Assembly (NCBI GenBank): GCA_027858995.1 | Contig: JAQIBP010000034.1 | Span: 1 to 64,000 of the forward strand | Origin: Deltaproteobacteria bacterium | Lineage (GTDB): Bacteria > Desulfobacterota > Desulfobacteria > Desulfobacterales > Desulfobacteraceae | Length of the DNA stretch: 64,000 bases | Reading direction: 5' to 3' | Part shown: in pieces, positions 15,383 to 19,904 of the stretch | Numbering within the stretch: the stretch's first letter is position 1 | Layout of the letters: each line of letters starts with the position of its first letter | Position numbers and translations under genes: made by a program | The notes under the pieces: model-generated | Databases searched by the model: none | The model's input: the letters and a program-made list of their open reading frames with translations, nothing else | Told to the model about the DNA's origin: nothing

Positions 15383-16684
15383 ATGGGTGAACAAGTCAGC
15401 AAGCAAAAGATTGGAAATGACAGTTCTTTAGCTTTAGCTTTAGCTATTGGTATTATGCTTTCACCAGATACCCTTGCCATGCTGGGAAATTTTTTTGGAA
15501 AAACAGGGAATAGAGGATTTCTCTTAATTATTTTCAGTTTAATAATCTATTTAATTTTATTTTCACAATACAAACATTTTTTCATTTTTTTATCTGATAT
15601 TAAGATGTTAAAAAAAACTGTGGGAACTACTCCTGCCTTTTTCCCTTTTTTTGTTAAAAGTATAGCTGTTATTTTTCTATCAACCGGACTCCTGGTATCT
15701 TCAGGGTTTGTATTCAATGAAGTGTTTTTATACTGGTTTCCCAATTTCGGATTTGCATTTATTTTATTGGGATTGCTACTTGGTCTGCAATTATTACCAG
15801 TTAAGGTGGCTCTCTATTCACAAGTCGCCTTTTGTGTCATTTCAATTTCAGCCCTTTTAGTTTTAATCATTTCAGGAATCATGCAAGCCGATCAATTGAT
15901 TGATTTGAAACCGGGAGATATTGACTATTCGACTAATGGTTTTGGATTAGGTGCATATTTTCTGCCCCTGCTGTTTTTTATCGGTTTTGAGATGGGCTTT
16001 CCTATTTGGAATAAATCAGATCAGGATGTCCCCCAAAAAAACAGTATATTATTTGTGGTTGTTATATTCATGAGCATGCTCTTTATCCTGTGGGGTTATG
16101 TTTTGCTTTTATATATTCCCATGGAAAAATTGATGAACACCAACATTCCCCATATGATCGCTGCAAAAAATATACTGGGTGCTCCAGGCAGGTTTATTAT
16201 GGGAATAATTGTTATTTCAGGGTCTCTGGCTGCTGTTAATGCTCTTTTTACAACTATCTCACAACAGGGATCAATGCTTTTGCAAATAAAGATGCTGCCA
16301 GGTAATATAAAAATATCCAAAATTATCATTTTATCTTTAACTTTAATTATCGCTGGTATGATGGCAGGGGGTATGGCTGGTGCAGAAGAGCTTGAAACCT
16401 TTATAAGGGCATCACTGATTCTCTGGCTGATATCATATTCAATGATATCAATTTCTTATATTTTTATATTGAGCAAGTCGAACAAAAGGTATCATACCAA
16501 TTTTTTATTAAAAACAGTAATAAGTGTAATGTGCTTATTGATATTGGGAATCACCATCCTTATATTAACTCTAATGGATGACAAGTCCATTCTAATTTTT
16601 AAGTTTTTGGGAGTGGCACTTTTCATAAGTCTCATTCCAGGTTTTATTCTTATGTTAAGAGATGCTAAAGCTTTTAAAAGATAG
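15383..16684 (+). CDS. APC-superfamily permease-like membrane protein
   Basis: 433 aa with about twelve hydrophobic helices and few charged loops. The fold pattern (unwound first helix region LAIGIMLSPDTLAMLG, then FFIGFEMGFPIWNKSDQDVP around helix 6) resembles amino-acid/polyamine/organocation permeases. The substrate cannot be inferred. AGGAG at 15366-15370 is 12 bases from the ATG, rather far, so initiation may be weak. It lies between the disrupted membrane gene and the selenorhodanese candidate, 42 bases ahead of the latter, possibly co-transcribed. Confidence 0.7.
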   Translation: MGEQVSKQKIGNDSSLALALAIGIMLSPDTLAMLGNFFGKTGNRGFLLIIFSLIIYLILFSQYKHFFIFLSDIKMLKKTVGTTPAFFPFFVKSIAVIFLSTGLLVSSGFVFNEVFLYWFPNFGFAFILLGLLLGLQLLPVKVALYSQVAFCVISISALLVLIISGIMQADQLIDLKPGDIDYSTNGFGLGAYFLPLLFFIGFEMGFPIWNKSDQDVPQKNSILFVVVIFMSMLFILWGYVLLLYIPMEKLMNTNIPHMIAAKNILGAPGRFIMGIIVISGSLAAVNALFTTISQQGSMLLQIKMLPGNIKISKIIILSLTLIIAGMMAGGMAGAEELETFIRASLILWLISYSMISISYIFILSKSNKRYHTNFLLKTVISVMCLLILGITILILTLMDDKSILIFKFLGVALFISLIPGFILMLRDAKAFKR

Positions 16685-16726
16685 AGTTATAAATTAATTT
16701 TTAAATAAAATTTAGGAGGAAAAGAA

Positions 16727-17140
16727 ATGAAACTATTAAGAAAAAGAACGTTTTTGACACTATTTATATTGGCTGCTGTTTTTACACTGCTGGCTTCAAC
16801 AAGTGCTGTGGCAAATGTTGATAGAATGACCAAAGAAGAATTAAAACAAATCATGGGAGAAGAGACTGTCTTGATTCTTGACGTACGAGCCGGTCGAGAT
16901 TGGAGCTCATCTGAATTGAAAATCAAAGGATCTGAGCGTGTTTCGCCGCAGGATTTCAAATCCTGGTCAAATAGATATCCCAAAGATAAGACTTTGGTTT
17001 TATATTGTGCATGATCCAGCGAAGCTACAAGTGCCGGTCTGGCACAAAAATTATTGTCAAATGGATATACTAAGGTTTATGCACTGAAAGGCGGCTGGAA
17101 AGAGTGGTTCAGGGCAAAATTCCCTGTTGAAGACAAATAA
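16727..17140 (+). CDS. Exported rhodanese, probable selenoprotein (UGA = Sec96)
   Basis: 137 aa if the in-frame TGA at 17012-17014 is read as selenocysteine. Residues 1-29 form a signal peptide (basic start, hydrophobic core, cleavage after AVA), so the protein acts in the periplasm. The rhodanese domain spans LILDVRAGRDW to the end, with VLYCA-U-SSEATSAGL at the active-site loop. Relatives I know have YCACPNEATSA, so Sec replaces a conserved Cys. The frame stays open after the TGA for 41 codons of good rhodanese sequence (KVYALKGGWKEWF) to TAA 17138-17140. A SECIS-like hairpin lies at 17031-17045. AGGAGG precedes ATG 16727. If the TGA were a true stop, the product would lose half its domain. 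The likely role is sulfur or selenium transfer, or thiol redox, outside the cytoplasm. Confidence 0.82.
17012..17045 (+). other. In-frame UGA and bacterial SECIS-like hairpin
   Basis: UGA at 17012-17014 is followed after 16 bases by GTGCC-GGTCT-GGCAC (17031-17045), a perfect 5-bp GC-rich stem with a five-base loop. Bacterial SECIS elements sit directly downstream of the UGA and need G at the loop start. The E. coli fdhF SECIS loop is also GGUCU at a similar distance (18 bases from UGA to loop there, 21 here). The stem is short and no clear lower helix was found, the main weakness. Confidence 0.75.
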
Positions 17141-17170: not shown

Positions 17171-17536
17171 TTGGCAGAGAAAAATGAATTAATTAAAAAT
17201 ATTCCATTTTCAGAAGCTGTAAATATTACAGAGCTTGTAGATTATGAGGAGGGAAGAGTTGTATCCAGGACACTGACCAGCAAATCAAACATCAATATTA
17301 CACTGTTTGCTTTTGACAAAGAGGAGGAGATCAGTGCCCATACATCGCCGGGTGATGCCATGATACAGATCCTTGACGGGGAAGCGTTGATAAATATTGA
17401 CGGGGAAAAGATTGCAGCTGTTACAGGACAGGTTGTTGTTATGCCTGCAAATGTTCCCCATTCTGTTAGTGCTGTGACTCAGTTTAAGATGATACTGACT
17501 GTGGTTAAACAACCAGTCGGAATTCAGGGGTTATAG
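17171..17536 (+). CDS. Small cupin-domain protein
   Basis: 121 aa, single cupin barrel. Cupin motif 1 shows EISAHTSPGDAMIQILDGEA (partly degenerate histidines) and motif 2 MPANVPHSVSA. Metal binding by His in both motifs is likely, but the reaction is unknown. The start is TTG 17171 with GGAGG at 17161-17165. It lies 30 bases after the selenorhodanese and is probably in the same transcript. It ends convergently with the ThiS-like gene. Confidence 0.82.
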   Translation: MAEKNELIKNIPFSEAVNITELVDYEEGRVVSRTLTSKSNINITLFAFDKEEEISAHTSPGDAMIQILDGEALINIDGEKIAAVTGQVVVMPANVPHSVSAVTQFKMILTVVKQPVGIQGL

Positions 17537-17564: not shown

Positions 17565-17762
17565 TTATCCTCCTGCAACAAGGGGAAGCAGTTGAATTTT
17601 TGAGTTGTCTGGAATAATGGTTTCTTTAAATTTTGGGCTTGAAACAAGCCTGCCGTTAAGGCGGACAACTGAACAGAACTCTACATTATCAAGTGTTTTT
17701 AAAAGAGCTGCAATGGTCAGGTTGTTTGACCATTGCAGCTCTTTTTCATCAACTTCAATCAT
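17565..17762 (-). CDS. MoaD/ThiS-family sulfur-carrier protein
   Basis: 65 aa with a ubiquitin-like fold pattern and the essential C-terminal Gly-Gly (LLPLVAGG), the site of adenylation and thiocarboxylation. MoaD-like carriers supply sulfur for the pterin dithiolene of Mo/W cofactors. It starts 3 bases after the AOR stop and is evidently translated with it, so a dedicated role in tungstopterin supply or AOR maturation is likely. Similar carriers are commonly found next to AOR genes. Confidence 0.85.
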   Translation of the reverse strand: MIEVDEKELQWSNNLTIAALLKTLDNVEFCSVVRLNGRLVSSPKFKETIIPDNSKIQLLPLVAGG

Positions 17763-17765
17763 TGT

Positions 17766-19904
17766 TTATTCAACACCGCTCTTTTTCAAAATTTCCAAAA
17801 CTTCAGGAAAATCAATACCAAGACGTTTTACAGTTTTAACAGTGGGGATTCCGTTTTTTGTCCATCCGCGGCGTTCATAAACTGCATCTGTCAGCAGTTC
17901 ATACTGCTCTTCTCTTTTCTCTCTTAATACAGCTGTTTTCTTTTTTGTATCCATACCGCTTATATCCATGCTGTATTTTTCTTTGAGCTGCGTATCATAA
18001 AGTTCCTGTCTTGATTCATATTCTTCTTCAGTCACAGGCCCCATGGCTCTATAGGGAATGGTATCATGTTCCCTTGTTCCATATCCCATTTTAAGATTAA
18101 AAACTCTCTGGAAATTATAAACAGCCTCACTCATGGCAATGAGACCATCACTATCTGTTTTTTTGCCAGTAATTGCGCTGAAAAAGTCTGCATACCATCC
18201 TATGTGTTTAACAACTTTTGCAGGTTCTGGATTGTCTTTATTGTCTTCAGGAACAACATCATTCCAGGGAAGCTTGCAAAGACCGCAAAGACCGAACCAG
18301 GTTCTGAACATGGGAAACCAGTGAAGGGCTTCTGCTTTGTCCTCAAAGCTTGGCATGAAATTATGAACCATATCAAGGAAGATAAGCCAGGCTTCATCAT
18401 GCTGGGGGCCCTTGAGGGCAAGACCGTAGCCGCCCTGCTGTGCCAGAGATTCCTTGGTAATGTATTCAGAGAATTCAAGGCCTTTGGATTCCATGCCAAT
18501 ATCCTGCATAAAGGCCATGTCTGCTCCAAAGTCCTTTGCAAAGATTTCTTTCATCTTTCTGACGCCTTTGCCCACGATAATACCAAATCCTTCGCCCTTT
18601 GCCATCTGATGAATGATTTCAAGGGTATTGAATCTATTTCCAAAGCTTAAATCCATTCCATTTGTATGTTTGGTTGTAATCTGGCTGTTTTCAAAGCACT
18701 CCATGACAAATCCAATGGAAGTCCCCACGGAAATAGTATCCATGCCATAGGCATCACAATAAAAATTAATCTCAAGAATGGTCTGGGCATCAAAGATTCC
18801 AAGATTGGAACCGCATCCAGCAACAGTCTCATACTCAGGTCCGTCAACAAATACTTTTTTACCTTTGTAAGGTCCAGTAAAAGGTGAAAAATCTTTTACT
18901 CCATGGGAACAGGCTACAGCACAGCCTTTCCAGCAGCCGTCAAAACCTTTATCAAAAATTAGTTCAAAAGCCTCTTCTCCTATAAGCTTACTCTTAGGGT
19001 GTGAACCAAATTTAAAGTTATTAACCGGCAGGCAGTCATGATCATTCATTATTGGTACAATATGGGTGGTTCCCACAAGCGCCATGCGATTCTGCTTTGG
19101 ATCAAGCTCATTAATCTCTTTTGCATAAGTTTTAGTAACAAGTTTCATTGCATCCAGATCAGAAGGATTATTTGATTTCATGGAAATTGGAGCATATCTT
19201 GCCACGATGGCTTTAACTTTTTTATCAGCAAAAACAGTTCCAATACCACCTCGACCGGCCTGTTTATATCTCACTCTTTTACGCCCGGCATCCCACCATG
19301 AAAAGTTAAGACAGCCGAAAAATGTATTTTCAGCTCCAGGCCCTGCGCTTACAACAGAAACATTAACAGGTTTGTCTTCGTCAAAATGGTGGGTCAAACT
19401 ATTTGAAAGTTCATAGGAATCTTGTGGAAGGTTTTTGGCTTCAAAGATTTTGATTCTGTTTTCGATTCCGTCAATGAGAATAACAGTATCTTCCTTTGCT
19501 TTGCCGTCAACCTGAAGAACATCAAAGCCGGAAAATTTTTTATAGGGTCCAAAATATCCTCCAACATTAGAATCAATGGGAATTCCTGTTAAAGGAGAAA
19601 TAGAAGTTACAATACTTTTTCCGCCGCCTGGATAGCCGGGAGTTCCGCCAAGAGGGCCGGAAGAAATACAGATTGCATTTTCAGGGTCATTCCATTTTGT
19701 ATCCCCGGAAACCGCATTCCACATCAGCCATAAATCATACCCTTTCCCTCCGATAAATTTATCTTTTATCTTCTCTTCGATTGGCTTTATAATGATATCA
19801 TTTGCATCAAGATTAATGCGAAGGGATTGATCTGTATATCCTTTTTCTATCTCTGCTTTTTCATAGGAAATGGCTGTCATCTCTTTTAAATTAATTTGTC
19901 CCAT
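17766..19904 (-). CDS. Aldehyde:ferredoxin oxidoreductase family (tungsten/molybdenum)
   Basis: 712 aa, longer than the roughly 600-aa archaeal AOR. N-terminal pterin-binding signatures are KFIGGKGYDLWLMW and SSGPLGGTPGYPGGGKS (about 81-97). The [4Fe-4S] ligands are Cys324, Cys328, Cys332 (CWKGCAVAC) and a distal Cys in FGLCGLCKLPW. DTIS in CDAYGMDTIS is the second pterin loop. AOR enzymes interconvert aldehydes or carboxylates, or in BamB relatives reduce aromatic acyl-CoA, with ferredoxin. The sequence looks closer to classical AOR than to BamB, but the substrate is not decidable. AAAGGAG precedes ATG 19904. A ThiS-like gene follows. Confidence 0.9.
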   Translation of the reverse strand: MGQINLKEMTAISYEKAEIEKGYTDQSLRINLDANDIIIKPIEEKIKDKFIGGKGYDLWLMWNAVSGDTKWNDPENAICISSGPLGGTPGYPGGGKSIVTSISPLTGIPIDSNVGGYFGPYKKFSGFDVLQVDGKAKEDTVILIDGIENRIKIFEAKNLPQDSYELSNSLTHHFDEDKPVNVSVVSAGPGAENTFFGCLNFSWWDAGRKRVRYKQAGRGGIGTVFADKKVKAIVARYAPISMKSNNPSDLDAMKLVTKTYAKEINELDPKQNRMALVGTTHIVPIMNDHDCLPVNNFKFGSHPKSKLIGEEAFELIFDKGFDGCWKGCAVACSHGVKDFSPFTGPYKGKKVFVDGPEYETVAGCGSNLGIFDAQTILEINFYCDAYGMDTISVGTSIGFVMECFENSQITTKHTNGMDLSFGNRFNTLEIIHQMAKGEGFGIIVGKGVRKMKEIFAKDFGADMAFMQDIGMESKGLEFSEYITKESLAQQGGYGLALKGPQHDEAWLIFLDMVHNFMPSFEDKAEALHWFPMFRTWFGLCGLCKLPWNDVVPEDNKDNPEPAKVVKHIGWYADFFSAITGKKTDSDGLIAMSEAVYNFQRVFNLKMGYGTREHDTIPYRAMGPVTEEEYESRQELYDTQLKEKYSMDISGMDTKKKTAVLREKREEQYELLTDAVYERRGWTKNGIPTVKTVKRLGIDFPEVLEILKKSGVE

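Follow-up and report, generated by a model that had tools for sequence, protein, structure and literature searches.

A predicted selenocysteine-containing rhodanese of the NF041203 family, with a SECIS hairpin and an upstream permease-like gene

The window (the whole stretch of DNA that was analysed, 64,000 nucleotides long) carries a short rhodanese gene whose reading frame contains a TGA, preceded by a gene for a membrane protein and followed by a cupin gene and a convergent ThiS and AOR pair. The features are the following:

15383..16684, plus strand: protein of 433 aa resembling permeases of the APC superfamily, gene ending 42 nt 5' of the rhodanese gene
16714..16719, plus strand: Shine-Dalgarno sequence AGGAGG, 7 nt 5' of the ATG (direct reading)
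16727..17140, plus strand: putative Sec-containing rhodanese gene, start ATG at 16727, 137 residues with the TGA read as Sec96
16727..16816, plus strand: likely Sec-type signal peptide, residues 1-30, recognised by eye (KLLRKR, a hydrophobic run, AVA-N)
17006..17008, plus strand: TGT, codon of Cys94, with which the CxU pair of the active-site loop begins
17012..17014, plus strand: TGA, codon 96, the predicted selenocysteine codon, also TGA in same-genus and same-order relatives
17031..17045, plus strand: apical hairpin of a bacterial SECIS, GTGCC-GGTCT-GGCAC, beginning 16 nt downstream of the TGA, with a covarying stem; it folds as drawn
17138-17140, plus strand: TAA, stop codon of the rhodanese gene
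17171-17536: cupin, beginning 30 nt after the rhodanese stop
17565-19904, minus strand: ThiS and AOR, convergent with the rhodanese gene

The rhodanese frame is open both before and after the TGA at 17012-17014, and under the standard code it stops at residue 95, which is where a standard annotation would cut the protein off. The original prediction, that an in-frame TGA at 17012 is followed by an open frame, is thus borne out by the coordinates of the ATG, the TGA and the TAA. Inspection of related sequences finds hydrophobic leaders at their start as well, and the product is predicted to be exported and to fold as one GlpE-like rhodanese domain.

The protein matches the curated family NF041203 (rhodanese_LYCAU, rhodanese-related (seleno)protein) with 182.2 bits (cut-off 115) over positions 3-126 of the 126 in the profile, and it matches PF00581 with 57.5 bits (cut-off 22.2). 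The motif that names the family is present as LVLYCAU, the TGA providing the second residue of the CxU pair, and the gene shares with the family the single Sec and the SECIS directly 3' of it. No defining difference was found: the loop of the window protein is YCAUSSEATSA, with CAUSSEATSA where CAUPNE is commoner. This form of rhodanese has been tabulated before. In a 2026 review it appears as "Rhodanese-like domain-containing protein form 3" (NF041203, CxU, 1 Sec), with a reference to Zhang & Gladyshev 2005 (PMC13188914), and a 2022 review has the same CxU form (PMC9312934). The statement that Sec-rhodaneses had already been predicted was therefore right, down to the exact CxU form, and family membership together with these listings makes the gene a further member of a known family and not a discovery; the literature searched yielded no biochemistry for NF041203. 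Another rhodanese-type selenoprotein, TsoB (NF045694, rhodanese/DsbD fusion-like), was considered and rejected, as the match of 30 bits lies far under the 805-bit cut-off and TsoB is a multi-domain protein with two Sec residues (UxxxxU), whereas the window protein has 137 residues and one Sec.

When 395 genomes of the phylum were searched with NF041203, 61 contained members above the cut-off, mostly with one internal TGA; about 80 loci were collected and 78 distinct members tallied. TGA occupies the column of Sec96 in 67 of the 78, the complete tally being 57 CxU, 10 UxU, 2 CxC, 7 with Ser and 2 with Ala (L087 is counted as UxU, and in L111 the U is shifted by one). The expectation of a Cys/Sec alternation in this column held in so far as two members carry Cys; what did not hold is the idea of Cys as the norm, since Sec in most members makes Sec the "normal" residue of the family.

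The ten UxU relatives (L080, L087, L096, L097, L099, L100, L106, L127, L132 and L136) come from four or more families of the phylum and have two in-frame TGAs (YUxU) 6 nt apart with one hairpin. These variants with two TGAs were not found in a non-exhaustive literature search, in which the reviews give CxU with 1 Sec.

The proposed signal for recoding lies where it had been predicted. The perfect stem of GTGCC (17031-17035) and GGCAC (17041-17045), the loop GGTCT (17036-17040) and the interval of 16 bases after the UGA are all confirmed by the coordinates. The SECIS of E. coli fdhF has the same GGTCT apical loop at a similar spacing, 18 nt after the UGA (NC_000913) and 21 nt here, so the statement that the two distances are nearly the same also holds; fdhF has a longer stem with a bulge, whereas that of the window is an unbulged 5-bp stem, and the host proteins are unrelated. 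The folding energy of the single window sequence is unremarkable (z -0.38, not significant). Of the 2775 TGA trinucleotides in the window, only 10 are followed by a SECIS-like stem of 5 bp that is GC-rich and has a G in its loop, and trials of synonymous recoding regenerate the window stem in 5.5% of cases and that of each family sequence in about 6%.

Of the 66 TGA members that were scored, 65 have the complete 5-bp stem at +16; of the 11 members without TGA, 1 has it. Codon choice follows the hairpin closely in the TGA members: the Ser at codon +6 is AGY in 66 of 67, the Ala at codon +7 is GCC in 63 of 63 (pool 0.46), and the Ala at codon +10 is GCA or GCG in 63 of 63 (pool 0.41). Synonymous compensation is seen where codons +6 and +10 pair through their third bases (T-A in 41 sequences, C-G in 20, mismatched types in 2). 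GC content accounts for part of this pattern, the mean GC3 being 0.63 in the T-A group and 0.74 in the C-G group; both types occur inside the high-GC set. Since the 66-67 TGA sequences are related by descent, the P values are nominal. Judged on sequence comparison, the evidence that the hairpin goes beyond chance is nonetheless decisive. The element also appears to shape the protein: codon +8 of the TGA members always has G as its middle base, the guanosine of the apical loop, and the residue is for that reason limited to Arg, Ser, Gly or Trp, which makes the family an example of an RNA element that sets the sequence of a protein. One CxS member (L061, G192:C171) has TCA in place of the TGA and a 5-bp hairpin that is still intact, possibly a recent loss of Sec.

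The source genome (97.1% complete, 0.5% contamination) has what is needed to read UGA as selenocysteine. The search proposed for selA, selB, selC and selD found the complete set: a tRNA-Sec with anticodon TCA (75.6 bits, gathering score 47), selA (538 bits), selB (350 bits) and selD (366 bits). The selD gene (L026, contig C151) itself has an in-frame TGA (GCG GGC TGA GCT GCT), that is, the selenophosphate synthetase is a selenoprotein, so that recoding of UGA is required in this genome regardless of the rhodanese.

Two readings would remove the selenocysteine altogether. If the TGA were an ordinary stop, the gene would encode a truncated rhodanese or be a pseudogene, with its 3' half an untranslated remnant, as the end of the ORF at residue 95 under the standard code would allow; if it were a sequencing or assembly error, a TGC, TGT or TGG would have been turned into TGA, for which the division of the assembly into 172 contigs can be cited. 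The closest comparison bears on both. The same-genus orthologue (L145/L151) is 80% identical, has an identical hairpin and keeps the TGA, the frame and the TAA stop; dN/dS between the two genes is 0.11 downstream of the TGA, a sign of purifying selection on those codons, and 0.17 on its upstream side, and the two sequences cease to be similar at the TAA. Error and decay are thereby excluded, and the doubt about the TGA that resequencing was meant to settle is answered by an independent genome of the genus. Within the genus, 3 of the 25 other genomes have the gene with its TGA, and more independent genomes, at the family and order level, have the triplet in the same place. An ordinary stop would leave unaccounted for the 67 relatives with TGA at this very codon, the covarying hairpin and the complete Sec machinery, and it is given a chance that is close to negligible; an error, which would have to recur together with a hairpin that covaries with the TGA, is more improbable still. 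The preferred reading, that codon 96 encodes selenocysteine and the protein is a selenoprotein of the NF041203 family, is assigned a probability of roughly 0.96 from these sequence comparisons; it is a clean and statistically well-founded predicted selenoprotein in a taxonomically broad family.

A structure model of residues 31-137, built with Cys in place of Sec and from four sequences only, is that of a rhodanese domain (pLDDT 86.9). It matches E. coli GlpE (1gmx) with Z 15.4 and an rmsd of 2.1 Å over 103 aligned residues, and many solved rhodaneses match it at Z 13-17. The loop at model positions 64-69, between the strand 59-63 and the helix 70-81, contains Cys94 and Sec96, and it is at this strand-helix loop that rhodaneses hold their catalytic Cys. 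The two residues compete for the equivalent place: phmmer aligns Sec96 with Cys65 of GlpE, at a weak similarity (E 3.3e-4), and a global alignment with another rhodanese of the same genome (L001) puts Cys94 at the catalytic position, a disagreement that arises because a two-residue indel fits either way. Compared with the canonical six-residue CxxGxR, the loop C94-A-U96-S-S-E-A-T has Thr in place of Arg. GlpE, a single-domain thiosulfate sulfurtransferase, thus shares the single-domain rhodanese fold with the window protein, and differs from it in using Cys, where the window protein has a CxU pair, a predicted export signal and a weakly similar sequence.

The novelty implied for the surroundings of the gene, an exported rhodanese beside a cupin and facing an AOR/ThiS pair, did not survive comparison, as these neighbours are not conserved. 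Relatives of the cupin and of ThiS were found near none of the 78 other members, AOR-like genes of low identity occur near 2 of the 78, and none of the three lies beside the rhodanese in seven close relatives; all three were rejected as partners. The cupin of the window may still be co-transcribed with the rhodanese, as it starts 30 nt after the stop.

What recurs next to the rhodanese is the gene upstream, a probable operon partner. A permease homologue on the same strand precedes the rhodanese in 11 of the 78 distinct loci and, among seven additional relatives, in five (16 in total), that is, beside a minority of the family. The 433-aa membrane protein of the window has no match in Pfam or NCBIfam; its relatives, to which it is 25-31% identical, match PF13520/TIGR00909 (amino-acid permeases of the APC superfamily), and by sequence the gene at 15383-16684 appears to belong with divergent APC-superfamily permeases that are linked to Sec-rhodaneses. 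A non-exhaustive search of the literature found no description of this linkage. Together with the UxU variants, the permease offers a concrete handle on the function of the family.

A rhodanese fold alone is no proof of sulfurtransferase activity. The best guess, to which about even odds are given, is that the protein transfers or reduces sulfane sulfur outside the cytoplasm by means of a Cys-x-Sec pair in its active-site loop. On strong comparative evidence, SelB and tRNA-Sec are predicted to decode UGA-96 as selenocysteine, directed by the hairpin. In the proposed mechanism, the selenolate of Sec or the thiolate of Cys would capture sulfane sulfur from a donor such as thiosulfate, a polysulfide or a persulfide, although the element captured might be either sulfur or selenium. 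The partner two residues away would then resolve the adduct as a Cys-Sec selenenylsulfide, which would free sulfide or hand the sulfur on, and a reductant would reset the enzyme. The permease encoded directly upstream probably transports a related sulfur compound.

A strong competitor, held with a confidence a little short of even, accepts the Sec and sees in the protein a thiol-selenol redox enzyme built on the rhodanese fold, not a sulfur transferase; the substrates of such a CxU oxidoreductase would be disulfides, peroxides or selenium/metal oxyanions. In favour of this reading, a selenenylsulfide can form within the CxU pair, Thr stands in place of the canonical loop Arg, and the resemblance of the upstream neighbour to amino-acid transporters would suit traffic in cystine or cysteine; moreover, redox roles are expected for most uncharacterised selenoproteins (PMC9312934). 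On the other side, the rest of the context of the rhodanese active-site loop is kept, and the gene has no fused redox domain. A wider proposal is put forward as speculation, with doubt prevailing: NF041203 rhodaneses and the adjacent APC-type permease might work together as a relay for sulfur (or selenium) in the periplasm of Desulfobacterota-like bacteria, and a change from CxU to UxU in several lineages would have given the first diselenide-capable double-Sec rhodanese loops, one hairpin serving two UGA codons 6 nt apart.

Other rhodaneses were encountered in the course of the searches. Five loci (L062-L066) hold degenerate CxS/SxS paralogues, the Sec form being also present in two of their three genomes; some of these paralogues adjoin a gene for a small exported protein, which is conserved at three loci. 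A search of plasmids for relatives returned distant ordinary rhodaneses only. The source genome itself contains a second rhodanese with a TGA at the canonical catalytic position (L001, C71:73041-73295, VLVYUAVGGRSRVAA), likely another Sec-rhodanese of a different form. It also encodes an exported rhodanese of three domains (L002/L004/L007, C95:6378-7262), with CQGPTUK (TGA) in domain 1 and CGGLKC in domain 2, which suggests an alternation of Cys and Sec between the domains of one protein.
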